IMG/VR virus record: IMGVR_UViG_3300009503_000050
Span: 1-38,014 of that record
Source: a virus
Length of the DNA stretch: 38,014 nt
Reading direction: 5' to 3' (one strand)
Shown here: piece after piece, positions 2,718 to 19,558 of the stretch
How positions within the stretch are numbered: the first letter of the stretch is position 1
Layout: each line of letters starts with the position of its first letter
The notes under the pieces: model-generated
The model's database searches: none
What the model was told of the DNA's origin: nothing
The model's input: only the letters and a program-made list of their open reading frames with translations
Position numbers and translations under genes: made by a program

Positions 2718-3062
2718 TTATATTTTATCACTAAGAATTTCAACTAATTTCTTTGTGAATTCCTCAATTCTTTTATTTTCTATGATTGTAACTGCATTTT
2801 GGATACATACAGATAGTATCTTTTTTGCCCCTATGCACTCTTTTAACAAAGGACACTTACTATCTTTTTCTATACATCCTTTCTTATTAATATTTCTTGT
2901 GATACAATCTCCTTTAGTTTGTGGAATTTTTTTATTCCAAATACTCTCCCACGCTTTGTAAATCATTTGGATGACATCATAACTTAACTCAAGACTTCCA
3001 TCATAGTTTAACGAACTTTGCTTTGCTTCTTGCGGAGACTTACTTCTGTCCTTGACTTCCAT
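2718..3062 (-). CDS. Cysteine-containing hypothetical protein after the E1-like gene
   Basis: A 114-residue protein I cannot assign. The central part carries five cysteines (53, 63, 70, 76 and 86, in GDC, KGC, SKCPLLKEC and SVC), which could hold a metal or an iron-sulphur centre. Helical segments lie on both sides. Its ATG has AAAAAGGAGGTG upstream, and the first 23 bases overlap the end of the ThiF/E1-like gene, so it is probably translated with the ubiquitin-like cassette. It could be a partner or substrate of that cassette, but only its position says so. Confidence 0.65.
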   Translation of the reverse strand: MEVKDRSKSPQEAKQSSLNYDGSLELSYDVIQMIYKAWESIWNKKIPQTKGDCITRNINKKGCIEKDSKCPLLKECIGAKKILSVCIQNAVTIIENKRIEEFTKKLVEILSDKI

Positions 3063-3786
3063 TGTTTACACCTCCTTTTTCATTGTAATAATACTTCTTT
3101 ATTGCATTATTTATACTAAAAACTACCTCATAATAATTATGTCCATTCGTCATTAAATCCCATATAACATTAAATCCTATTATTGCCGACATAGCATTAG
3201 TATTAAACAACTGCCTTGTGTCCTCAGCGCAAGAGCCACTTTGGGGTTCACTTATTTCTGGATGGACATCAGACATCTTTACACTCCCCCTGGAAATAAA
3301 TACCTGACCATTCGTAATATCATTAGCAATATCCACCCAAGCTACTTCAGAGTCCCATCTTGTCCCTGTAAATAATTCTCTCTCAACTATCCACCTTGTC
3401 TCATGATTGTCAACGCAAGATACAATTACTGGCCTAGCCTCACTATACATATATGAACTTATATTAAAAATACTATTAAAATTCTCACTACTTAATCTTT
3501 CTGTGTTGAAGTAGATTGGAACTCCAAATATTCCTGAATATCTACTTGCAAGCACATATGCTTTATTTTTTCCTAAGTCCTGCACTGCAAAGTTTTGCCT
3601 AAACATGTTCTTGGGTTCTACACTATCATTATCAACTATCATATATTTTGCAATCCTGCTGTTATCATTTAGCATAACTCTGCATATCATCGGGGCTAAG
3701 TATGCTCCTATTCCTCCTGCACCTATTTGATAAATCATACACTTGCTAAAACCTGGATACTTATACTTATACTTTTCTGTATTCAT
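3040..3786 (-). CDS. ThiF/E1-like adenylating enzyme of a PRTRC-type cassette
   Basis: The 248-residue product is an E1/ThiF-type activating enzyme, which uses ATP to adenylate the C-terminal glycine of a ubiquitin-like partner. Visible are the nucleotide-binding loop G22-A-G24-G25-I-G27, the acidic pair in IVDNDSVEPKN (D52, D54), N60 with R63-Q64, and K73 in LGKNKA, all in the expected order. Cysteines at 124 (VSCVDN) and 186 (GSCAED) are candidates for a thioester site; the second, followed by RQLFNTNAMSAI, resembles the PRTRC ThiF pattern. I start it at ATG 3786, which overlaps the stop of the JAMM gene in an ATGA and has GGAGG at good spacing. Coupling with the JAMM and E2-like genes supports one functional unit. 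Confidence 0.85.
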   Translation of the reverse strand: MNTEKYKYKYPGFSKCMIYQIGAGGIGAYLAPMICRVMLNDNSRIAKYMIVDNDSVEPKNMFRQNFAVQDLGKNKAYVLASRYSGIFGVPIYFNTERLSSENFNSIFNISSYMYSEARPVIVSCVDNHETRWIVERELFTGTRWDSEVAWVDIANDITNGQVFISRGSVKMSDVHPEISEPQSGSCAEDTRQLFNTNAMSAIIGFNVIWDLMTNGHNYYEVVFSINNAIKKYYYNEKGGVNNGSQGQK

Positions 3787-4433
3787 TCTTTCCTCCACCA
3801 GTGTTCATCAATTAACTTTTCAAATAATTTATTGTGTTCACAACTTATTGATTTTATGTTTTTATCCCAAAATTTTGGATAACTAAACTCAAATATTTCA
3901 TCAAATTGTAATTCAATCAAATCATCACCACACTTTAATCTCCACATTGATATAATATTATCACTCTTAAATGAAATTACGCCATAGATACATAACCTTT
4001 TTTCGTCACTATTATCAATAGAACTAAAGAATGCTCCCATTCTATTGTGACTATGAACTTCAAGAACCAACAAATCTGTTTGTTCTTTAACATAATCATT
4101 TTTAACTTCTATACTTGCTTGTGAAACACACTGTTCTGGAATAAAAACATAATACTTTTTCTCCTCTCTACTCCAGAATATTTGGGCGTATACTTCAGAA
4201 TCATGCTTCCTAAAAAAACCCACTATCTGGTAAAATAGTTCTGCTGGTATCTTACTATTTTTCCACACTAAACCTTCTTTTAACTCAAGCAACTGGGGAA
4301 CTTTTGAACAATGCAGATTAGCCCTAAAAACTTCGTTATTTTGGACTCTCATTACTCCTGACTTTGTTACCAAAAACACCAACTTACTTTCCAGCTGAGA
4401 CTTGTCCTTAAAGAGCTCAACTTTACTTTCCAT
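3783..4433 (-). CDS. JAMM metallopeptidase of PRTRC protein A type
   Basis: The 216-residue protein contains the complete JAMM zinc motif H127-S-H129-x7-S137-xx-D140, in the sequence LEVHSHNRMGAFFSSIDNSDE followed by IYGVI. This arrangement is characteristic of PRTRC system protein A and related prokaryotic JAB proteins. In such systems the peptidase is expected to process the ubiquitin-like protein or remove it from targets. Because the Ubl at 5873 already ends in Gly, a deconjugating role is more likely here. It sits between the E2-like and E1-like genes, starts with AAAGGAGG before ATG 4433, and ends inside the start codon of the E1-like gene. Confidence 0.85.
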   Translation of the reverse strand: MESKVELFKDKSQLESKLVFLVTKSGVMRVQNNEVFRANLHCSKVPQLLELKEGLVWKNSKIPAELFYQIVGFFRKHDSEVYAQIFWSREEKKYYVFIPEQCVSQASIEVKNDYVKEQTDLLVLEVHSHNRMGAFFSSIDNSDEKRLCIYGVISFKSDNIISMWRLKCGDDLIELQFDEIFEFSYPKFWDKNIKSISCEHNKLFEKLIDEHWWRKE

Positions 4434-7409: not shown

Positions 7410-7427
7410 TAATGTATCCTAAATGTA

Positions 7428-7640
7428 ACAACTTTTTTTTATTTTTTTCATATTTTTTTTATTTTTTTTTTTTTTTTATTTTTTTTTTTTTTATTTTTTT
7501 TCATTTTTTTTTTTTTTTTTTTTCTTTTTTTTTTTATTTTTTTTATATTTTTTTAATTTTTTATTTTTTTTATTTTTTTTTTAATTATTTTCTTTCATTT
7601 TTTTTAATTATTTCTTTCATTTTTTTATTTATTTTATTAT
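7428..7640. repeat. Low-complexity near-homopolymeric T tract (A tract on the leftward RNA)
   Basis: About 210 bases consist almost only of T on the plus strand, in runs up to about 17 broken by single A or C bases. Reading frames across it are Phe-only or Lys/Asn-rich with no start signal, so it is not coding. It should melt easily and would give an A-rich leader to leftward transcripts. Exact run lengths may be affected by sequencing error. Confidence 0.7.
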
Positions 7641-7650
7641 CCATTTACTA

Positions 7651-7662
7651 TTTGTTTACATA
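7651..7662 (+). repeat. Iteron-like repeat TTTGTTTACATA, copy 1
   Basis: One of three exact copies of this 12-mer in the central non-coding region (others at 8187-8198 and 8282-8293). This copy lies between the T tract and the small gene at 7731-8075. Repeated short sites in one orientation suggest a sequence-specific DNA-binding protein. Confidence 0.4.
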
Positions 7663-7678
7663 AACGGATTAAAAAAAA

Positions 7679-10046: not shown

Positions 10047-10772
10047 ATGGAAACACTTCAGGACATAGTAAGTGAAATAAAGAAGGAAAAGAGAAGCCGT
10101 TCTGAATTTAAGGAAGAAGAAGAAAAAGAGCGACAAAATATCATTACTGAAAAATATACAGGTAGATTGTATCCATGTAAGTCATGCGGGCTGGAAAAAG
10201 TCAAAGAACGTACAAGTGGATATATACCTGACTTTTGCCATAGTTGCCAGAAGAAAATAAGTATTCTAAAGATGAAAGAGGCACGACTTGAAAAGGCAAA
10301 AGAGAAGATCTTTAACAAAACTATAGATATAATCATGCCAGATGGCAGTACGGCTAAAGTTAGAGATAGCGAGGAAGAGAACTTTATAAAGCAACGTTTA
10401 ATACAATACAAGAAAGACTTCGATTGGACTGAAAGTGCAGACCTCGGACTACTCACAAAACTAATCAACCTTGAACTCCAAACCAATAGAATCTCAAAAA
10501 TGCTTACCCTGAGATACAAAAATGCAGATGCAAAGTCGCTTGCCGCACTTACTGAAGAGTACAGAAAATGTCAGTCTGATCTTGGAATAAATAGAACAAA
10601 GAGAGTTGATTCAAATGAAGCCGAGGATCCAGCAAAGATTGTCATGAACATGATAGCAAAGTTTAGAGAATATAAACAAAAATTTCCAGAGAGATTCCAA
10701 TGGAGATGTAAAAAGTGCGGTGAAATTAATTCTCTGGAGATGGAAAACCCAGATGCAGGCAAATCTGTCTAG
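10047..10772 (+). CDS. Zinc-knuckle protein before the terminase, candidate small terminase subunit
   Basis: A 241-residue protein with a charged helical N-terminus and a four-cysteine zinc site (C44-KS-C47 ... C64-HS-C67). Long helices follow, and a second CxxC (C221, C224) lies at the very end without a matching pair. Its place immediately before the large terminase, with a 20-base overlap, is the usual slot of a small terminase subunit. I see no helix-turn-helix that would confirm this, so the name rests on position plus a DNA-binding-like zinc site. The start directly follows the upstream stop. Confidence 0.55.
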   Translation: METLQDIVSEIKKEKRSRSEFKEEEEKERQNIITEKYTGRLYPCKSCGLEKVKERTSGYIPDFCHSCQKKISILKMKEARLEKAKEKIFNKTIDIIMPDGSTAKVRDSEEENFIKQRLIQYKKDFDWTESADLGLLTKLINLELQTNRISKMLTLRYKNADAKSLAALTEEYRKCQSDLGINRTKRVDSNEAEDPAKIVMNMIAKFREYKQKFPERFQWRCKKCGEINSLEMENPDAGKSV

Positions 10773-12231
10773 AGAGGAAGTTGAATTTATAGGAAGTTTG
10801 TTTCATCCAGTAGTGTTCTTTGACTGTTTTATTCCTGAAATCCATAAAGAAGTCGATATGGCTAGAAACTACCAAATTGAGATGCTACTAGACAACAGCA
10901 GGGTTTCCGTTACAAAGGCTGCCAGAGGCGTTGGTAAGACAACTACAGTTGAATCTGATATTCTCCAAACTATGCTTACTAATCCTAAAAAAGAAGGGCT
11001 TCTCACTACACCTAATAAGGCTCATATAGATCCGCTGTGGAATAGAATTACAACGTTTGTTAGAAGCCATCCATTCTGGAATAGTTTTATAACTAGAATT
11101 GTAAAAAGTGATACATATACAATAGAAGCTAAAAATGGTTTTATATTGCATGGAAGAATATCTGGAAGCTCAAAAGGTGCAAGTGTACTTTCGTTGCATG
11201 TGGATTTTTTATGGGTTGACGAAGGACAACTCTATATGGGGACTGGATTAGATCAACTACAAGGATGTATAAAAGCTAACTGCAGAATTAGAATCTACGG
11301 TGTGCCTAATGGAATGAGGAAAGGATACCTGAGTATTGCATGGAACGACCATGTAATACCAGAAAAATCGAAGCACAAAATAACAAAATTTCAAGATCCT
11401 ACTTTTACAGAGGAGGAGCACCAAAGGCTCATAAGAACATATGGTGGAAAAAGTTCCCAGGCCTACTTAAATCAGGTGCTTGCAGAAGATGGTATCGCTA
11501 CTCAGAAAACTTTTAATCCGATGTATTATAATAAAATATTCGTTGAGGTCCCTTCGTATGAAGTTTTTGAATTTGATGGCAAAAAAATTAATGAGAAGGA
11601 AATAGACGAAACTAAGATTGCGTTTCCAATTGTGCCACCAGAGGCTATAGAACTTAATATAAGTGCGGACCTTGGGTATCATCCAGATCCTACAGTTTGT
11701 GGTATATGGTATACTACTCAGAACGATATGTCATTTTTACTATGTAAATTTATACTCTACTTTATCTCTTATACCAGACAAGCAAAATTCTTTGATAAGA
11801 TAGCTTCAATTATGGGTGTTAAAAACGTAGCCCTTGAAATTGGAGGTCCTGGTCAGACAGTTTATCTTGATATGAATAGCAACGATTTATATCCAGATAA
11901 AAAATATAATGTTATTGGTGTGGATTTTAGATCGAATGTCCCAATTGGACTTGATAACAATGGAAACATAATAAAAGATAATGCTAAATGTTACGCAACA
12001 CAACTTATACGTGATGCATTTGAAAAGAAAAAAATGTTTCTACCAGCAAACGATCTGTTACTGTATGATGAAATTGATTCAAATACACAATATAGTACAT
12101 CAAGAGGGACATTTTCGTATGTTGGAGTTGATCACCATATAGATATGATTCGTTGCTATGTTTTAACAAAGTTACTCCAAAAGGAAGTTAAACAATCAGA
12201 CTTTGGAGTTGTGAGGTATGTTGATTTCTAA
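10753..12231 (+). CDS. terL: Terminase large subunit (ATPase-nuclease DNA packaging motor)
   Basis: The 492-residue protein pumps phage DNA into the prohead and cuts it. The ATPase part shows the Walker A-like loop A57-R-G-V-G-K62-T-T and the Walker B strand FLWVDEGQ with D156 and E157. The nuclease part (RNase H-like) has a first acid in ISADLGYHPD (D306), a second in ALEIGG (E362) and a third in DHHIDM (D464), in the expected order. I start it at ATG 10753; a GTG at 10720 would lengthen it by 11 residues. The 20-base overlap with the zinc-knuckle gene suggests coupling. Length is within the usual 450-600 range. Confidence 0.93.
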   Translation: MQANLSREEVEFIGSLFHPVVFFDCFIPEIHKEVDMARNYQIEMLLDNSRVSVTKAARGVGKTTTVESDILQTMLTNPKKEGLLTTPNKAHIDPLWNRITTFVRSHPFWNSFITRIVKSDTYTIEAKNGFILHGRISGSSKGASVLSLHVDFLWVDEGQLYMGTGLDQLQGCIKANCRIRIYGVPNGMRKGYLSIAWNDHVIPEKSKHKITKFQDPTFTEEEHQRLIRTYGGKSSQAYLNQVLAEDGIATQKTFNPMYYNKIFVEVPSYEVFEFDGKKINEKEIDETKIAFPIVPPEAIELNISADLGYHPDPTVCGIWYTTQNDMSFLLCKFILYFISYTRQAKFFDKIASIMGVKNVALEIGGPGQTVYLDMNSNDLYPDKKYNVIGVDFRSNVPIGLDNNGNIIKDNAKCYATQLIRDAFEKKKMFLPANDLLLYDEIDSNTQYSTSRGTFSYVGVDHHIDMIRCYVLTKLLQKEVKQSDFGVVRYVDF

Positions 12232-12239
12232 AAATACAT

Positions 12240-13619
12240 ATGGAAAGTAACAAAATTCCTAAACGAAAAAAGATTTCTTTTACAGAAGGGAAAATAGACA
12301 TTACAACAAAACTTGGGCAAAGTAGTGACGATGTGGAACTGAAAAAAACGTATTCTACAAAAAATGTAGGAGTTGTTGGTGTTGATTTTTCTGGAGAAGT
12401 AGGAAAGCAATTTACTAGAGTAGAATTGCTTGAGCAGTACTACAGACTTTGTGAGATTGTGAGAGCATGTATTGATGCAATAGCTTATGCATCAGTGCAA
12501 TCTGGGTATCACTTTGAGCCATGTAATCCAAATGAGGAAATAGATAAAAACATACTTACTTTATTAAATAGATTCTTTGATAATGTAAATGAAGATGATG
12601 ACTTCAGCGATCTTGGTCTTGACACATTTTTTGATCTATTGACGTTTGGAGATGCTTATTGGGAAAAAGTTGTTAAATACAAGCAATTAATGGATTTTCT
12701 TGAGTACTTGAAAAATCCCAAGGGGGATCCATGGGAAGTCGAAATACCCTACTCGTTATATAAAGTAAGTGCAATGTATATGCATGCCCACTGGAATGAT
12801 AAAAAACGTATTGTTGATAAATATGAACAGAGAGATATTGCTGGTAAAGTTATAACTGAATGGGAACCCCATCAGATTGTTCATTTTAGAATGTCTTCTC
12901 CAATAGACGAAATAAGTGGGTTTGCACCAGCTACAACATTAAAAAATATTATTGCTGCTGATATATACTCAAATAACTACAATGCAAAATTTTTTGAAAA
13001 CAATGCAACTCCTAGACTCCACATAGACCTTGGCAAAGTTAGCAAAGCAGAGTTAGATGCATTCTGCGGAGAAGTCGAGCAAAATTTGAAAGGTAAACCA
13101 CATAAGAACATTGTGACAAGAGGTGGTGTTACTATCCATCCTATTGGTCTCACTAATAACGATATGCAGTTTTCTGAATACCAAAAGCACCTTACACAGA
13201 AAGTTCTTGCTACATTTAGGGTTCCACCTATTATACTTGGTATGACAGAACTTACAAAAGGTATTACTGCTGACGCCCAAATAGCACTATTTAAATTTTT
13301 GGCTGTTGATCCTATAAGACGAATCGTTGCATCTAGAATAAATAAGAAGATTATAAACACATTGTTCCCTGGAGTGAGAGTAAAGTTTGTGTTTAATCCG
13401 ATAGATAGACTCGATCAGGCTATGCAGAGTCAGGTTGATAAATCTGATTTATCTGGAAATATAAAAACTGTCAACGAAGTAAGGGCTGCAAGAGGAATGG
13501 GCAAAGTATCATGGGGAGATCAACCTGTCCCCATGCCAGGACAAAAAATACCAGGTGCAAATGAAAGAAGGACAAACGAGGAAGGCGAGGAAGGAGGAGA
13601 TGAGAATGGATATCAATAA
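12240..13619 (+). CDS. Portal protein, HK97-like
   Basis: The 459-residue product forms the ring at the unique vertex through which DNA passes and to which the tail attaches. Typical portal features are EQYYRLCEIVRACIDAIAYASVQSGYHF near the start, a GDAYWE block, HFRMSSPIDEISGFAPATT, and FRVPPIILGMTELTKGITADAQIALFKF. The Pro/Glu/Gly-rich end looks disordered. It follows the terminase by eight bases with no strong ribosome binding site of its own, so it probably depends on coupling. The last 14 bases overlap the giant fusion gene, whose ribosome binding site lies inside the portal frame. Confidence 0.9.
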   Translation: MESNKIPKRKKISFTEGKIDITTKLGQSSDDVELKKTYSTKNVGVVGVDFSGEVGKQFTRVELLEQYYRLCEIVRACIDAIAYASVQSGYHFEPCNPNEEIDKNILTLLNRFFDNVNEDDDFSDLGLDTFFDLLTFGDAYWEKVVKYKQLMDFLEYLKNPKGDPWEVEIPYSLYKVSAMYMHAHWNDKKRIVDKYEQRDIAGKVITEWEPHQIVHFRMSSPIDEISGFAPATTLKNIIAADIYSNNYNAKFFENNATPRLHIDLGKVSKAELDAFCGEVEQNLKGKPHKNIVTRGGVTIHPIGLTNNDMQFSEYQKHLTQKVLATFRVPPIILGMTELTKGITADAQIALFKFLAVDPIRRIVASRINKKIINTLFPGVRVKFVFNPIDRLDQAMQSQVDKSDLSGNIKTVNEVRAARGMGKVSWGDQPVPMPGQKIPGANERRTNEEGEEGGDENGYQ

Positions 13620-16600
13620 GTGGGCTGATGAACCAATGGTAGAACCAAAAGAATGGACAGCAGAACGCAAAAAAAGGCTTCTTGATGATCATAGACTTGT
13701 TCATGCAGCTTACCAAAGTCTTATTAATGGAAAGACTCTTTATCATAGAAAAGGGGCGTTAGCAGGAAAAATTATAACAAAGGAGTGGTTGGAAAAATTT
13801 CATAAATGGATTGTTCAACACATTTTTAAGCTTGGTTATAAACACAATATGGTAGATGAGCTTGATAGAACTCTTCCTATGGAACTAAAAGACAAATCAG
13901 TACAAAAAACAATAACTATTGAGGATGTACTACAAGGGAAGAAAGAGGAATTAATATCTGCATTAACTACAGACAGTGGTAGTGTATTGATTCCACAAAA
14001 GATAGATAAGAATAGCGTGAAATGGGCTATTTATGTCACAGCTCCGCATGGATATATGATATGGAAAGGGCAAAAGACACTCATAGTTAAGTCAGTTGAA
14101 CTGAAAAAACATATAAATGAGCCTTTACTTCTTGTATCAGGCACATTTGCATTTGGGATAATAAGACTTGATTCCCCACAAGAGATAGATCAAAAGATGT
14201 TTCAGACTTTAAAACAAGAACATAAGATTACCGACGAGGAAGCAAAAACATGGGGATTTGATAAAAAGGATAAACTATATGCATATAGAGTTCATGTTGA
14301 TTATTTATACCCAAAGCCAAAAAAAATTATAAAACCAAAAGGATTACAAAATTTTACAGAAATTGAAAATATACGTGTGATTAAAGATCAAGAAGAGAAA
14401 AAAATGCTCAATGTTGACGAAGTTGTTGGGCTTATAACTGACAATAATATACAAAAGTCAATAATGAAACTTGAAATGATTACTCCGAGTGAACTGAAAA
14501 AAATATCAAGAGCGCAACTTATTTTTATACATTTGTTATTGCATAGAATATATGACAATGCAGATAGACAAAAGAAAAATAGTCCTTCAAATGAAAATCT
14601 TGCTAACTGGCACTCGTTTGTAAAACAAGAAATGATAAATAGAGGTATCAAACACTTTTGGAAAAACAAGTTAGATGATCTAAGTAAAGAACAACCATCT
14701 CAACCTAGTGAAGTAAAGAAAGATATTGAAGAAGTTGATAAAAGTTTTAAGGATGATATTAAAGATGCTCTTAAGAATATAAACGATATTGTTATTATAA
14801 ATGATTATGTATGTCTTGTTGGCTCATCTGTATCTCGTGAGAACCCTCACGACATTGATGTTCTTGTCAGAAGTGATTTCAGAGATCCTTCACTTGAGTT
14901 GAAAATTGGGAAAGTTCTAAAAGAGGGTGGGTTAAAACATAAGATTCACTGGGTATGGCTTGCAGCAGGACCTCATTCGTCATATCATAAAATTGCTGAT
15001 TACGTTGTTAGAATTGATAAGGATTTACCATTTGTAGAAGTTAAAGAGGACAGATATAAAAATATAAAAGAATCCCTTTCAGATATAGATATAGAAAAAT
15101 CAGCATACTCTTATTATAAGGGACTTGACGAGTGGAAGACTGATTTTATAATTGATGCATATCATACTATCAAAAGTATAAAAGGAAATAAAATTATTGA
15201 TATAGGTTGTGGAACTGGACGATTACTTAAAATGCTTAGTAATAGCGGCTACGAAACTACAGGTATAGATAAAGATAAAACTGCTATAGATTTCTGTAAG
15301 CGAAATGGGGTTAATGTAATTGAATATGATATAGAATGTGGAAATCTTCCTTTTAAAGACGATGAGTTTGATACTGCAGTGTTAATGCATGTAATAGAAC
15401 ACGCAGAGGATCCAGATAAAGTTATAAACGAAGCATCAAGAATATCAAAAAATGTAGTTTTGATAATTCCTATAGGAGATTGTGCCGATACAACACATAA
15501 AAGAACTTATAATATTGCTGATATTGAGAAAATAGCTAATGAATATGATGCATCAATTCATATTTATCATATCGGGAGACAAGAAAGATTTAATGCTATA
15601 ATTACAATGAATTCTATTGAAACAAATAAAGGATGGTTAAAACCAGGTGAAACATTTTCACCGATAAAGCCAGCAATGGCAGGATACACTGAATTTTTCT
15701 CTATAGATGAACTATGGGATAAATGGGCGGAACAAAGAATTTCAAAAGGTATAGACATAGAAGAAAAACTCAATGGATTTCGTTGTATAATAAGTAAAAA
15801 AGGAGATGCAATCAAAATATGGTTTGAGGATTCAAAACAGGATAGAAATAAACAATTGCCAATGCTTGTTGATGAGTTGAAAAAAATAAACGATGATTTT
15901 GTTTTAGATTGTAACATTGGAATTAATCGTAATGGGAAACCACTACCGAGAATAAAATTGATGACCCTTTTAGCAAATAATCCAGAATTAAAAGAAGGTG
16001 ATGAAGTTTTATGTACTGTATTCGACTTACCTTACTGGAAAATTAACTTGACAGAAAAATCTTTGAGTGAAAGACGTGAGGCACTAGAAAATTTCTTTAA
16101 TAAATATCTGAAAGGTAATAAAAACTTTGGAATTACATCGTATAATGTTGTTAATAGTAAAAACGAAATGGCTACTAAGGCAAAGCATCTTGCTAGTCTT
16201 CCAGGTTCCGAAGGTATAGTTGCAAAGACTATTGATTCAAAATATGTAAGAGGTGGAAGTGACGATTGGGCAAAGCTTAAATCCATTGTTGAAGTTAAAG
16301 CTTTAGTATATAATGTTCAGACTAATAAAAATGGGACAAAATCGTTTTATTGTGGTTTACTACCTGGTGATTCTAACTACAAGAATATAATTGAATATAA
16401 TGGAACTAAATACGTTGATTTAAAGAAAACAATGTCGTCAAATGTTCCTGCTACAAAAGGTGATATTATCACTGTCCATGTTGGTGAGATAATAGAAACT
16501 GAAGATGATAAACTTCAGTGGGTTATTCCGAGAGTTATAGACGTGGATAAATCCAGAACAGAGCCATATTTTGCTAAACAAGTTGTTGATATGGCTGAAC

Positions 16601-17385
16601 GAGCGCATGTTTTGCAAAAAGCATTAAATATTGTTGATGAAATACAAAAAACTATATCACCTAAACAAGTTTCACAGGAACAAATTGGTGAGGAAGTGGG
16701 TAAAGGTCCGCATGCCAAAGCGTCAATATCATTCTGGGAAGAAAACTGGTGGAAAATGTACAATAAAGAAACAGGAAAGTTTGTTCTTCAATCGCATTGG
16801 AGAGGATTAAGTGAAGAAGAGTCTAAAATGACATATGAGGAACTTTTAAATACAAATAATTCTGTCCACCAGGACCTTCGCTCCGAAATAGAGCCTGGTG
16901 GAAATTTATGGGGTTTCTCATTGTTTACTGGAACAGCGAAGGATTTGAAAAAGATGAATGGAAACTCTCTTGCAAATATAGACAATAGCCATATTCGTGG
17001 GACACACAAATTGCTTGTTCCAAGAGGATGGCTTAATCTTAAAGACGGAACAGTTTTTGCACCTACAGAACCAGGTGCAACAACGAAGTCATATGCTAAA
17101 TTCTTTGTTATTGAGAAAGGATCTTTCAAAAATGGTGTGTGGCATAGAAGTTTTCAGGAAGTATTTTTCAATGGGCCTACAATAAAGGGAAGATATATAT
17201 TTGCAAAAGCACAAGTTGGAGATCAGAGATTTTGGCTTGTATCAAAGCCAGAAGATCAGAAGCCATATGCCGAAACTCATAATCTTGAAACAGTAATAAA
17301 AGAACTTAAATCCAGAGGGCATAAATGGTTGTGGTGGAGAGAATCATTAGAATCCGAACCAAAACTCCTTGATTTAAGTAGATGA
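13606..17385 (+). CDS. Giant multi-enzyme protein: ASCH-like, nucleotidyltransferase, methyltransferase, ATP-dependent ligase, LigD-type phosphoesterase
   Basis: The 1259-residue protein chains several enzyme domains. Residues 145-240 resemble an ASCH/PUA-like fold (IWKGQKT at 152-158). At 405-420 is a minimal nucleotidyltransferase motif, G406-S-S then D416-x-D418. Residues 526-690 are a Rossmann SAM methyltransferase (DIGCGTG at 532-538). Residues 700-1000 are an ATP-dependent ligase with K721-L-N-G-F-R726, EGIVAK (869-874), WAKLK (888-892) and an OB-like part. Residues about 1058-1250 fit the LigD 3'-phosphoesterase, with QSH (H1064), V-H1088-Q-D1090-L-R1092 and T-H1134. ATG 13606 has AGGAGG eight bases upstream. 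The place between portal and protease is unusual for enzymes and suggests a virion-associated, possibly injected polyvalent protein that repairs or seals ends. Residues 119-134 resemble the start of the capsid protein. Confidence 0.8.
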   Translation: MDINKWADEPMVEPKEWTAERKKRLLDDHRLVHAAYQSLINGKTLYHRKGALAGKIITKEWLEKFHKWIVQHIFKLGYKHNMVDELDRTLPMELKDKSVQKTITIEDVLQGKKEELISALTTDSGSVLIPQKIDKNSVKWAIYVTAPHGYMIWKGQKTLIVKSVELKKHINEPLLLVSGTFAFGIIRLDSPQEIDQKMFQTLKQEHKITDEEAKTWGFDKKDKLYAYRVHVDYLYPKPKKIIKPKGLQNFTEIENIRVIKDQEEKKMLNVDEVVGLITDNNIQKSIMKLEMITPSELKKISRAQLIFIHLLLHRIYDNADRQKKNSPSNENLANWHSFVKQEMINRGIKHFWKNKLDDLSKEQPSQPSEVKKDIEEVDKSFKDDIKDALKNINDIVIINDYVCLVGSSVSRENPHDIDVLVRSDFRDPSLELKIGKVLKEGGLKHKIHWVWLAAGPHSSYHKIADYVVRIDKDLPFVEVKEDRYKNIKESLSDIDIEKSAYSYYKGLDEWKTDFIIDAYHTIKSIKGNKIIDIGCGTGRLLKMLSNSGYETTGIDKDKTAIDFCKRNGVNVIEYDIECGNLPFKDDEFDTAVLMHVIEHAEDPDKVINEASRISKNVVLIIPIGDCADTTHKRTYNIADIEKIANEYDASIHIYHIGRQERFNAIITMNSIETNKGWLKPGETFSPIKPAMAGYTEFFSIDELWDKWAEQRISKGIDIEEKLNGFRCIISKKGDAIKIWFEDSKQDRNKQLPMLVDELKKINDDFVLDCNIGINRNGKPLPRIKLMTLLANNPELKEGDEVLCTVFDLPYWKINLTEKSLSERREALENFFNKYLKGNKNFGITSYNVVNSKNEMATKAKHLASLPGSEGIVAKTIDSKYVRGGSDDWAKLKSIVEVKALVYNVQTNKNGTKSFYCGLLPGDSNYKNIIEYNGTKYVDLKKTMSSNVPATKGDIITVHVGEIIETEDDKLQWVIPRVIDVDKSRTEPYFAKQVVDMAERAHVLQKALNIVDEIQKTISPKQVSQEQIGEEVGKGPHAKASISFWEENWWKMYNKETGKFVLQSHWRGLSEEESKMTYEELLNTNNSVHQDLRSEIEPGGNLWGFSLFTGTAKDLKKMNGNSLANIDNSHIRGTHKLLVPRGWLNLKDGTVFAPTEPGATTKSYAKFFVIEKGSFKNGVWHRSFQEVFFNGPTIKGRYIFAKAQVGDQRFWLVSKPEDQKPYAETHNLETVIKELKSRGHKWLWWRESLESEPKLLDLSR

Positions 17386-17400: not shown

Positions 17401-18612
17401 ATGGAACAGAAAATAATTGAAACAAACAGAGGATTAAGATTGCCTGTGATTTTCGAGAAAAATTATGTAGAAAAAACCGAAGGTGAAGAAAAAAGATTTA
17501 TTGAAGGGCTGGCAGCGGCACCTGGAGAAGATAGAAATGTACCTTTATACGAACTTACTGAAGAGTGTTTACGTGAGGCTGTTAATGACTTAAAAGTAAA
17601 CCAAGTGCTATTTCTTGAACACGATAAACATCAGCCAATAGGAAAGATTGTTGATGCAAAATTTATTCCAGGCAAAGGTATCTGGATAAAAGCTCTAATA
17701 AGTAAAACTGCAGATAAAGTTTGGACGATGATACAAGAAGGAGTTTTAACGGGTTTTTCCATAGGAGGTAGCGTAAAAAAGTTCATTGAAGAAGCTGGTA
17801 AAACTATATCTGACACTGTTTGCAAAGTCATCAGAATTGAACTTAATGAAGTATCAGTTGTAGCGCTTCCCGCTAACATCCATACACGGATATGGAACTC
17901 GTATATAAGTAAAGCATTATCTTTAAATATGGAAGGAGGTGAATTACTAATGGGCGATAAAGAATTTGCTGAAGTTGAAGAAGAAATTAAAGAAGAGGAA
18001 AAAATCAGTAAAGAGCTTGCAAATGAAAAAAGCGACATTAAAGAAATAGAAAAATCTACTATTGAAAAAACTGATGAAGTTAATATTAAAAATGATGAGA
18101 AAAAATCTGCTGAAACTGAAAAAGATGAAATTGATATTGTAAAAGATATAGGTGACGAAACAAAAGTTCCTGCTGATTTCGTGATCGAAGAAGCAATGAA
18201 GGATAAAATTGACAAAGCTGAGATTATACGTGGTCTGAAAGCTGCTCTAAAGGCAAAGAATATTGAGAAAGTGAAGGAAGCTATCAACAAAGTTATTTCA
18301 CTTTTAGAGGGCAAGTATTACGAATATTACTATAAGGAGGAATATGACAAAAATCGCAAGAAAGAAGAAAATGAAAAATATCCCAAAGTGGACAAAGCTC
18401 TTGAGGATATTCGTAAGGAAATTGAAGTCCTTAAAACATTTCAGTCTGATAGCATCAAAAATGCTGTTAAAGAAGTTCTTGCGACACTCCCTGATGAAAT
18501 AAGGAAGAGCGTAGCTGTTTCTCATAAAGACGAAGAAAAGAAGAAAGATACTCGGACTTTTGATGAGAGACTTAGCGATGCCGTAAGGGCTACTATTGAA
18601 AATAAGGGCTAA
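17401..18612 (+). CDS. Prohead protease (S78/XkdF-like) fused to a scaffold-like C-terminal region
   Basis: The N-terminal 170 residues match phage capsid maturation proteases: FLEHDKHQPIGKI with catalytic-type H74, VLTGFSIGGSV with S120 as likely nucleophile, and IELNEVSVVALPAN, a hallmark of the family. Residues 184-403 are highly charged, rich in Glu and Lys and predicted helical, as expected for a scaffold that fills the prohead and is then digested. GGAGG lies shortly before ATG 17401. A second strong ribosome binding site inside the gene precedes an in-frame ATG at 17950, so the scaffold part is probably also made separately. Protease directly before the capsid gene is the standard order. 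Confidence 0.85.
   Translation: MEQKIIETNRGLRLPVIFEKNYVEKTEGEEKRFIEGLAAAPGEDRNVPLYELTEECLREAVNDLKVNQVLFLEHDKHQPIGKIVDAKFIPGKGIWIKALISKTADKVWTMIQEGVLTGFSIGGSVKKFIEEAGKTISDTVCKVIRIELNEVSVVALPANIHTRIWNSYISKALSLNMEGGELLMGDKEFAEVEEEIKEEEKISKELANEKSDIKEIEKSTIEKTDEVNIKNDEKKSAETEKDEIDIVKDIGDETKVPADFVIEEAMKDKIDKAEIIRGLKAALKAKNIEKVKEAINKVISLLEGKYYEYYYKEEYDKNRKKEENEKYPKVDKALEDIRKEIEVLKTFQSDSIKNAVKEVLATLPDEIRKSVAVSHKDEEKKKDTRTFDERLSDAVRATIENKG
17950..18612 (+). CDS. Nested in-frame scaffold protein (internal start within the protease gene)
   Basis: Inside the protease frame, GGAAGGAGGTGAATT (17931-17945) precedes ATG 17950, codon 184, at ideal spacing. The product would be the 220-residue charged C-terminal half, MGDKEFAEVEEEIKEEEK..., with long helical stretches. 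The internal signal is nearly the same as the one before the major capsid gene (AGGAGGTGAATTA), fitting a scaffold made in large amounts. Phage lambda uses the same arrangement for Nu3 within C. Use of the internal start is inferred from sequence only. Confidence 0.6.
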   Translation: MGDKEFAEVEEEIKEEEKISKELANEKSDIKEIEKSTIEKTDEVNIKNDEKKSAETEKDEIDIVKDIGDETKVPADFVIEEAMKDKIDKAEIIRGLKAALKAKNIEKVKEAINKVISLLEGKYYEYYYKEEYDKNRKKEENEKYPKVDKALEDIRKEIEVLKTFQSDSIKNAVKEVLATLPDEIRKSVAVSHKDEEKKKDTRTFDERLSDAVRATIENKG

Positions 18613-18655: not shown

Positions 18656-19558
18656 ATGGAAGGACTTGACATCGAGAAAGCATTAACTACGGCTGACGGT
18701 AGCGGTGCTGCTTTAATTCCAGAAAAACTTGATCCATTGCTCACGGAACTTGCTTATAAGGAAACTCCTCTCTTGAGACTTTTCAAAGAGAAACCATGGT
18801 CAACCAACGTTTACGCATGGAATGAAAGAACAGCACTTGTAGCGTCTGGTGCATATAGTGAAAGTGATACATTCAGTTCAGCTACATCTACTTATAGCCA
18901 GAAATCTGTTACAATTAAGATGGTAAAAGCTGATGGTGAAGTATCGAATCTTTTGAAAGAGACTTCCAGGGACTATATTGATGCCCTAAAAGCAGAAATA
19001 GAGTCTGCTACACAGGAACTTTCTCATCAATTAGAGAAATACTATATCATTGGCAATGCTGGTCTTACTTCTAAAGAGTTTGATGGTTTATCAAATTTGG
19101 TTACGCAGACTTACAATGCCGCTTCTAGTAAAATTAGTCTGGATATTCTTGATGGTGCTATTAATACAATCATTGAGAATAATGGAAAGCCAAATCTGAT
19201 TCTTCTTGCAACTCGTGATATTCATGAGTTGTGGAGTGTTGTTAGAGACTCTGCTCTTGCATACTTCTGGAAAGAAGTTGAAAATAGAGAGAATTATCTC
19301 GCAAGTTATCGTGGGATACCTATAGTAGGTTCACAGTTTATTCCTACAAATCTTGGTTTGACTGGAGATCAGTCATTTGGATTTGTGCTTGATTTGAATA
19401 ATATTGTTGTTCCTGTAGTAAAGGGTATTTCTTACGAAGATATGACTGCCAAAGTATCAGCTGATACAACCGCATTTAGAGTAAAGACATGGAGAGCATT
19501 AGCTGTGAAAGGTGGAGCATATAAACATGTGAAGATAACTAACATAGCTAAACCCTAG
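18656..19558 (+). CDS. Major capsid protein, HK97 fold
   Basis: The 300-residue protein begins MEGLDIEKALTTADGSG, followed by ALIPEKLDPLLTELA, the usual start of the mature HK97-type shell protein. Typical blocks follow: TSTYSQKSVTIKMVKADGEVSNLLKETSRDYIDAL, then EKYYIIGNAG...FDGLSN and a C-terminal A-domain with ATRDIHELW. It lacks the long N-terminal delta region of HK97, consistent with a separate scaffold encoded within the protease gene. The ribosome binding site AGGAGGTGAATTA is among the strongest in the window, and a hairpin terminator follows at 19573-19605, as expected for the most abundant virion protein. Confidence 0.9.
   Translation: MEGLDIEKALTTADGSGAALIPEKLDPLLTELAYKETPLLRLFKEKPWSTNVYAWNERTALVASGAYSESDTFSSATSTYSQKSVTIKMVKADGEVSNLLKETSRDYIDALKAEIESATQELSHQLEKYYIIGNAGLTSKEFDGLSNLVTQTYNAASSKISLDILDGAINTIIENNGKPNLILLATRDIHELWSVVRDSALAYFWKEVENRENYLASYRGIPIVGSQFIPTNLGLTGDQSFGFVLDLNNIVVPVVKGISYEDMTAKVSADTTAFRVKTWRALAVKGGAYKHVKITNIAKP

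Follow-up and report, generated by a model that had tools for sequence, protein, structure and literature searches.

What does a single protein chain of 1259 residues, with several predicted enzyme domains, do in the head operon of a phage? This question is raised by IMG/VR virus record IMGVR_UViG_3300009503_000050, of which positions 1 to 38,014 (38,014 nucleotides, hereafter the window) were analysed. A reading made from the sequence alone, without database searches, had proposed that ASCH-like, nucleotidyltransferase (NTase), SAM methyltransferase, ATP-dependent ligase and LigD-type 3′-phosphoesterase (PE) domains are fused in this chain. In that reading, the ligase and PE parts recall the end-joining enzyme LigD, and the protein is packaged in the head and acts on DNA or RNA ends early after injection.

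The gene and its genome

The gene (13606-17385, + strand) is a single open reading frame without an internal stop. A Shine-Dalgarno sequence, GGAGG, is located 8 nt upstream of the ATG at 13606, and the start lies inside the end of the portal gene (12240-13619, +; PHROGs, E 4e-44), giving a 14-nt overlap. The prohead serine protease (Peptidase_S78, Pfam E 5e-9; 17401-18612, +) is encoded separately in the window: its gene starts 15 nt past the stop and has its own ribosome site, AGGAGG. By PHROGs, the terminase large subunit gene (10720-12231, +) precedes the portal gene and the major capsid protein gene (18656-19558, +) follows the protease gene. Thus, the PHROGs neighbours confirm the placement between portal and protease that had been noticed from the letters.

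The sequence-only reading had left room for an assembly joining of separate genes. Such a joint, or an artefactual fusion of frames, was ruled out, because an identical protein is encoded by a second contig, IMGVR_UViG_3300005573_000088 (69,236 bp), and because the same linear order of domains is kept in relatives. Chance is excluded on the same grounds. The second contig matches the window in circular permutation with 98.8-100% DNA identity. Because its ends carry a 121-bp repeat, this contig is probably a complete genome of about 69.1 kb. It encodes a bacterial DnaB, a DNA polymerase III beta clamp, RuvB and a sigma-70 region 4 protein. Therefore, the host is most likely a bacterium, and an archaeal host was ruled out for the window virus. 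The GC content of the window is 34%.

Several other features of this genome were observed. A ThiF/E1-like gene (3040-4433, −) adjoins a Prok-JAB gene, and a RadC-like JAB gene is located at 52-489 (−); together, the ThiF/E1-like and JAB genes form a ubiquitin-like module in the phage early region. The ThiF part of 3040-4433 weakly matches the PADLOC E1-E2 models. An open reading frame of phenylalanine runs (7412-7663, +) corresponds to a T-rich low-complexity stretch near small-indel differences between the two contigs. In the same genome outside the window, a cluster of methyltransferase-like and glycosyltransferase-like genes follows the tail genes (L006:9950-17622), and two related open reading frames of Gly/Tyr/Asp repeats are present (L006:17980-18444 and 18728-18940, both −).

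Domains of the 1259-residue protein

At the N-terminus, a helical domain (residues 22-84; 13669-13857, +) weakly resembles Pyr_excise (PF03013, E 0.008), with a score of 17 bits against a curated cut-off of 23. Three relatives match Pyr_excise (best E 3e-4), and the domain is also present in relative L085. A true pyrimidine-dimer glycosylase was not accepted, because the score is below the cut-off and the domain begins at residue 22 without the catalytic N-terminus. The next domain is ASCH/PUA-like (residues about 135-241; 14008-14328, +). The AlphaFold model of the N-terminal part has a mean pLDDT of 68, within which the ASCH part is good (mostly 83-94). Foldseek matched this part to 2dp9 (TTHA0113) and ZmASCH (5guq/5y6b) with a probability of 1.00, so that the ASCH-like assignment is confirmed by fold. 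ASCH-type domains also occur in relatives L085, L080 and L046. A further helical domain (residues 284-353; 14455-14664, +), defined by family alignments and common to the family, precedes the NTase.

Residues 388-481 (14767-15048, +) are probably a minimal NTase of the Pol-beta superfamily. In relatives, the motif GS(x8)DxD is nearly invariant: G406, D416, D418 and R422 are present in 41/41, S407 in 40/41 and the further aspartate D465 in 36/41. The hhalign comparison with MNT-type NTases gave 73% over only 29 columns (controls, 0.1%), and in the model the strands and helices follow each other in the order typical of this superfamily. No NTase was found in the PDB profile search of this region or among the best 50 fold matches of the N-terminal model, where ASCH dominates. 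With the invariant motif and the hhalign match, the proposed NTase stands with moderate support. The thumb and dRP-lyase domains of PolX are not evident, and therefore gap filling by this minimal NTase is doubtful.

A class I SAM methyltransferase of the MetW/UbiG-like type follows (residues 503-660; 15112-15585, +). The Pfam MetW match at residues 526-622 (E 7e-19) bears out this domain. Its slot holds an exchangeable module, and is empty or occupied by other domains in relatives.

The adenylation domain of an ATP-dependent DNA ligase occupies residues 680-893 (15643-16284, +). Pfam DNA_ligase_A_M matched residues 713-892 of the single sequence with E 9e-17. The best NCBIfam ligase match was TIGR02776, DNA ligase D (E 4e-18), which covers the ligase part only and is far below the curated cut-off. 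When a profile of 36 ligase domains was compared with the PDB, archaeal DNA ligases ranked first, followed by human LigI, III and IV and LigD. Residues 660-1259 were modelled with a mean pLDDT of 87; in the fold search with this model, the PDB matches were DNA ligases and the best 50 were all ligases. RNA ligases were not among the PDB matches of the ligase profile or the fold search. Thus, the Pfam, profile and fold matches agree with the ligase domain that had been proposed. The Foldseek alignments, of 360-408 columns, cover the ligase core together with an OB-fold domain (residues 894-990; 16285-16575, +), which is beta-rich in the model with a pLDDT of about 90. In the viral library, the best fold match was A0A516LT18 (827 aa; 689 columns), at a TM-score of 0.45 and an rmsd of 27, values that do not demonstrate a rigidly shared arrangement. 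The active site is conserved in relatives: K721, already named as a key residue, is invariant (36/36), as is E869 (36/36), and K890 is present in 35/36. The window ligase has several deviations. Motif I is KLNG, not KxDG, the canonical DGE strand reads LDCN, without its Glu, and the N-terminal DNA-binding domain of archaeal ligases is absent. A stand-alone ATP-dependent ligase is also encoded in the early region (907-1509, −; Pfam E 1e-13, the second PF01068 match in G001). Three genomes, that of the window and those of two other relatives, have such a separate ligase, and therefore the head-operon ligase is not simply a replication ligase.

The C-terminal domain is the LigD-type PE (residues 1038-1235; 16717-17310, +), which was recognised with profiles from relatives. 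Single-sequence Pfam searches found no match for the NTase, PE and ASCH regions, and LigD_N was matched neither in the window protein nor in the homologue from the archaeal virus ANMV-1; of 42 members scanned, five match LigD_N by themselves. With the PE profile from 48 relatives, six PDB entries matched at an E value of 1 or lower. The top five (5dmp, 3p43, 3p4h, 3n9b and 2lj6, the last three at E 0.02-0.03) are all PE domains of non-homologous end joining (NHEJ). When the family was aligned by hhalign with 16 genuine LigD PE domains, the probability was 96% (E 2e-9, 128 columns), as compared with 0.1-1% for control pairs. Thus, a possibility allowed for beforehand, that searches would fail in the PE and NTase regions, was realised with single sequences, but profiles of relatives reversed the failure, and the LigD-type PE is borne out.

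The residues H1064, H1088 and D1090 are present in 48/48 relatives and R1092 in 47/48; H1088 and D1090 had been named as key residues from the sequence. In the hhalign alignment, these four residues align with the H, H, D and R positions of LigD PE, which we take to have catalytic roles. The first structure listed, 5dmp, is the Methanocella PE, and Arg52 of PE is needed (PMC8656161). The two histidines are separated by 24 residues in the window protein, as compared with 7 in ANMV-1 and 6 in LigD. This wider spacing indicates an insertion here in most of the PE family. In the PE tree, the window protein is on a long branch without a supported sister.

The family and its genomic setting

When the ligase-PE part was compared by tblastn with 50,697 phage records, ANMV-1 was the only match. 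It is the sole record among them with a PE domain, and genuine LigD PE used as a query found no match in deposited phages. Scans of IMG/VR in which the window or ANMV-1 protein was the only query gave nothing new. An alignment of the two reached relatives in IMG/VR; NTase and PE alignments then gave 36 and 47 loci, respectively. In a genome scan, one family alignment found one locus, in a Dehalococcoides metagenome-assembled genome (MAG), and another alignment found none; in the phylum of this MAG, the family was present in 2 of 400 genomes. In Dehalococcoides MAG JdFR-54, two PE-family copies (L094 and L096) were seen, one of which has tandem Dam methylases ahead of NTase-ligase-PE. The family comprises about 65 phage contigs; after removal of near-duplicates, 56 open reading frames were retained, the window and ANMV-1 proteins included. 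The NTase, ligase and PE domains of relatives are about 20-50% identical to those of the window, and their active sites are nearly invariant.

The commonest architecture is NTase-ligase-UDG-PE-protease (16 members), where UDG is a uracil-DNA glycosylase-like domain. It is followed by NTase-methyltransferase-ligase-UDG-PE-protease (9), NTase-ligase-PE-protease (6), NTase-methyltransferase-ligase-PE-protease (4) and NTase-UDG-PE-protease (4). The others are variants, in part truncated at contig ends. Among the 42 members scanned with Pfam, DNA_ligase_A_M was found in 38, the prohead protease Peptidase_S78_2 (XkdF), fused to the polyprotein, in 32, and UDG in 22. The UDG slot is nearly always between ligase and PE. 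Four members (L063, L077, L034 and L069) have no ligase. In the 1806-residue relative L060 (L060:470-5887), the ligase is split by a zincin-like insert, and copies of an FNPxHxxxGRFA-like sequence lie on either side of the inserted modules. Another relative (L026:5422-9621) has a LAGLIDADG intein that interrupts the ligase domain immediately ahead of the motif V lysines. Besides the class I methyltransferase, the exchangeable modules are Dam (L044, L091 and L094), a beta-lactamase fold (two members), zincin-like and ADP-ribosyltransferase (ART) domains (L060 and L047) and, upstream in L036 and L063, 2H phosphoesterases (LigT and 2_5_RNA_ligase2).

The UDG-like domains carry GASPG. Family 4 UDG enzymes usually have GE.PG in this place, and some of the UDG-like domains may therefore bind uracil rather than excise it. 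A UDG domain is absent from the window protein itself.

These partners bear on the substrate. It is conceivable, though we think quite unlikely, that the NTase, PE and ligase mend host tRNA or mRNA after cleavage by defence nucleases, while the ASCH domain binds RNA. The ASCH/PUA fold, the 3′-ribonuclease activity that PE also has and the 2H domains of two members are consistent with such RNA repair. So is a PHROGs "RNA ligase" family whose C-terminal part aligns with the XkdF protease region of relative L013. In contrast, the ligase is of the DNA ligase type and the commonest partner is UDG. These two observations, together with the PE and the conserved active sites, point to repair of DNA.

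Synteny was examined at 67 loci, after contig duplicates were removed by hand. Portal/MuF genes are upstream at 53 and scaffold/capsid genes downstream at 53; both are found at 40 loci and neither at one, and contig ends explain many of the lacking neighbours. This synteny, and the fact that most relatives have the prohead protease in the same chain, strengthen the earlier idea of a polyvalent protein that may be packaged in the head. The same observations also fit a role during packaging, in which the concatemer would be freed of nicks, gaps and blocked ends at the portal or procapsid interior, with no delivery to the next host. The protease fusion and portal/MuF adjacency would place the protein in the procapsid, and proteins associated with the scaffold are commonly cleaved and then lost as the head matures. 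Yet this role leaves unexplained the Dam, ART, zincin and 2H modules, which resemble effectors aimed at a new host; we regard it as unlikely. On balance, we lean slightly towards a virion-associated polyvalent repair kit that would be produced along with the head proteins and work on phage DNA in the head or after injection.

Known systems and the proposed function

LigD and the split archaeal NHEJ PE (5dmp, 3p43, 3n9b) are among the nearest comparisons, since an ATP-dependent ligase and a homologous PE with an H...H-x-D-x-R site are shared. The window protein has a ligase with an OB fold and a PE with the conserved H, H, D and R, and its PE is homologous to that of LigD but divergent. Unlike LigD, the window family has neither a LigD-type polymerase nor Ku, although some real LigDs also miss domains; 24 residues separate the PE histidines of the window protein, as compared with 6-7 in LigD and ANMV-1; and the polyprotein family adds NTase, methyltransferase, UDG and protease in a head-operon gene.

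The mycobacteriophages Omega and Corndog encode Ku and circularise their genomes via host LigD. By analogy, a Ku-less LigD-like enzyme might join the ends of the injected genome, and the TIGR02776 match together with the PE domain would suit this. However, Ku was found in 0 of 17 related records (some perhaps fragments; a Bacillus subtilis control was positive), and neither Pfam nor NCBIfam matched a LigD-type primase-polymerase (AEP/PrimPol) in the window protein. The 121-bp end repeat is the overlap expected from an assembler on a circular map and is uninformative on cohesive ends. End joining or circularisation is thus very unlikely in our estimation. In other words, the PE and, to a looser degree, the ligase are comparable with those of LigD, but the likeness does not extend to end joining.

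Polyvalent proteins of phages and plasmids are a known kind (Iyer et al. 2017, PMC5512222). As described there, they resemble the window protein in being large multidomain proteins of portal-terminase phages in a virion-gene context, and share the exchangeable modules NTase, Dam, ART, 2H and zincin. The present family likewise has many modular domains per chain, and its gene lies among the virion and packaging genes of portal-terminase phages. In the text of PMC5512222, "ligase" occurs three times, apparently for RNA ligases, XkdF is unmentioned and no ligase-PE-UDG set was seen. There, 2H domains are said never to be associated with RNA ligases, whereas in L036 a 2H domain is joined to a DNA-type ligase.

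The ANMV-1 protein AJP62006.1 ("ATP-dependent DNA ligase") also has NTase, ligase and PE in one chain. It differs from the window protein in lacking the methyltransferase, in its longer C-terminus, in not being encoded beside a terminase gene and in its archaeal host. It is annotated as a ligase only and is unmentioned in the text of the 2015 ANMV-1 paper. Fusions of a single enzyme to XkdF appear to be in PHROGs already: the profiles 1530 ("DNA methyltransferase") and 14859 ("RNA ligase") are named for enzymes, while their C-terminal part is prohead protease, and Lactococcus and Rhizobium phage records are annotated DNA methyltransferase / prohead protease. These fusions of cultured phages have one enzyme at most and no repair set. 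A description of the present family was not found in the open-access literature on XkdF, ligase, UDG and PE combinations, and such an absence is weak evidence; the near-absence of PE from deposited phages may explain it. As far as this literature shows, the ligase-UDG-PE-XkdF family appears previously undescribed, polyvalent proteins themselves being a known kind.

In the repair kit that we favour, the polyprotein would be placed in or at the procapsid with portal and protease, and would work on the phage DNA while it is still in the head or immediately after its injection. The UDG-like domain, where present, would find uracil. The PE would convert blocked 3′ ends (3′-phosphate or 3′-ribonucleotide) to 3′-OH, the NTase would add or transfer a nucleotide at an end or gap, and sealing of nicks or joined ends would fall to the ligase. 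Exchangeable extras, probably directed against host defences, would be the methyltransferase, Dam, ART, 2H and ASCH-type modules. We infer the packaging, the timing, DNA rather than RNA as the substrate, and all of the activities.

Because about half of the relatives have a UDG-like domain, base-excision or nick repair is suggested as much as circularisation of ends. PgV PolX, a Pol-beta-like/ligase fusion, does base-excision repair (PMC5537341), and LigD with 5′-dRP lyase does so in vitro (PMC4770248); thus, such fusions can perform this repair. Like the window protein, PgV PolX is a viral fusion of a Pol-beta-type NTase and a DNA ligase; however, the likeness is by description, and PgV PolX has an NAD-dependent ligase, belongs to a eukaryotic giant virus, lacks PE and is in no capsid operon. 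As judged from domain content, our best reading is a function that resembles base-excision repair and end healing more than true NHEJ. Pieces of base-excision repair are missing: the polyprotein shows no AP endonuclease, a full polymerase is lacking, and the window protein has no UDG.

Phage particles may wait a long time for a host, during which their DNA deaminates and breaks. The usual view is that phages leave repair to the host. We give a little less than an even chance to the broader proposal that a widespread set of tailed phages with this family load a one-chain repair machine into the capsid, by which the genome would be repaired in the virion or right at the onset of infection. If this is true, some phages bring repair enzymes of their own, which the head operon encodes, in most members as one chain with the maturation protease. 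The 3′-phosphoesterase fold would then be known from one more setting, in addition to LigD and split archaeal NHEJ, and the polyprotein would be a natural, putative one-chain enzyme for multi-step repair, open to expression and assay.
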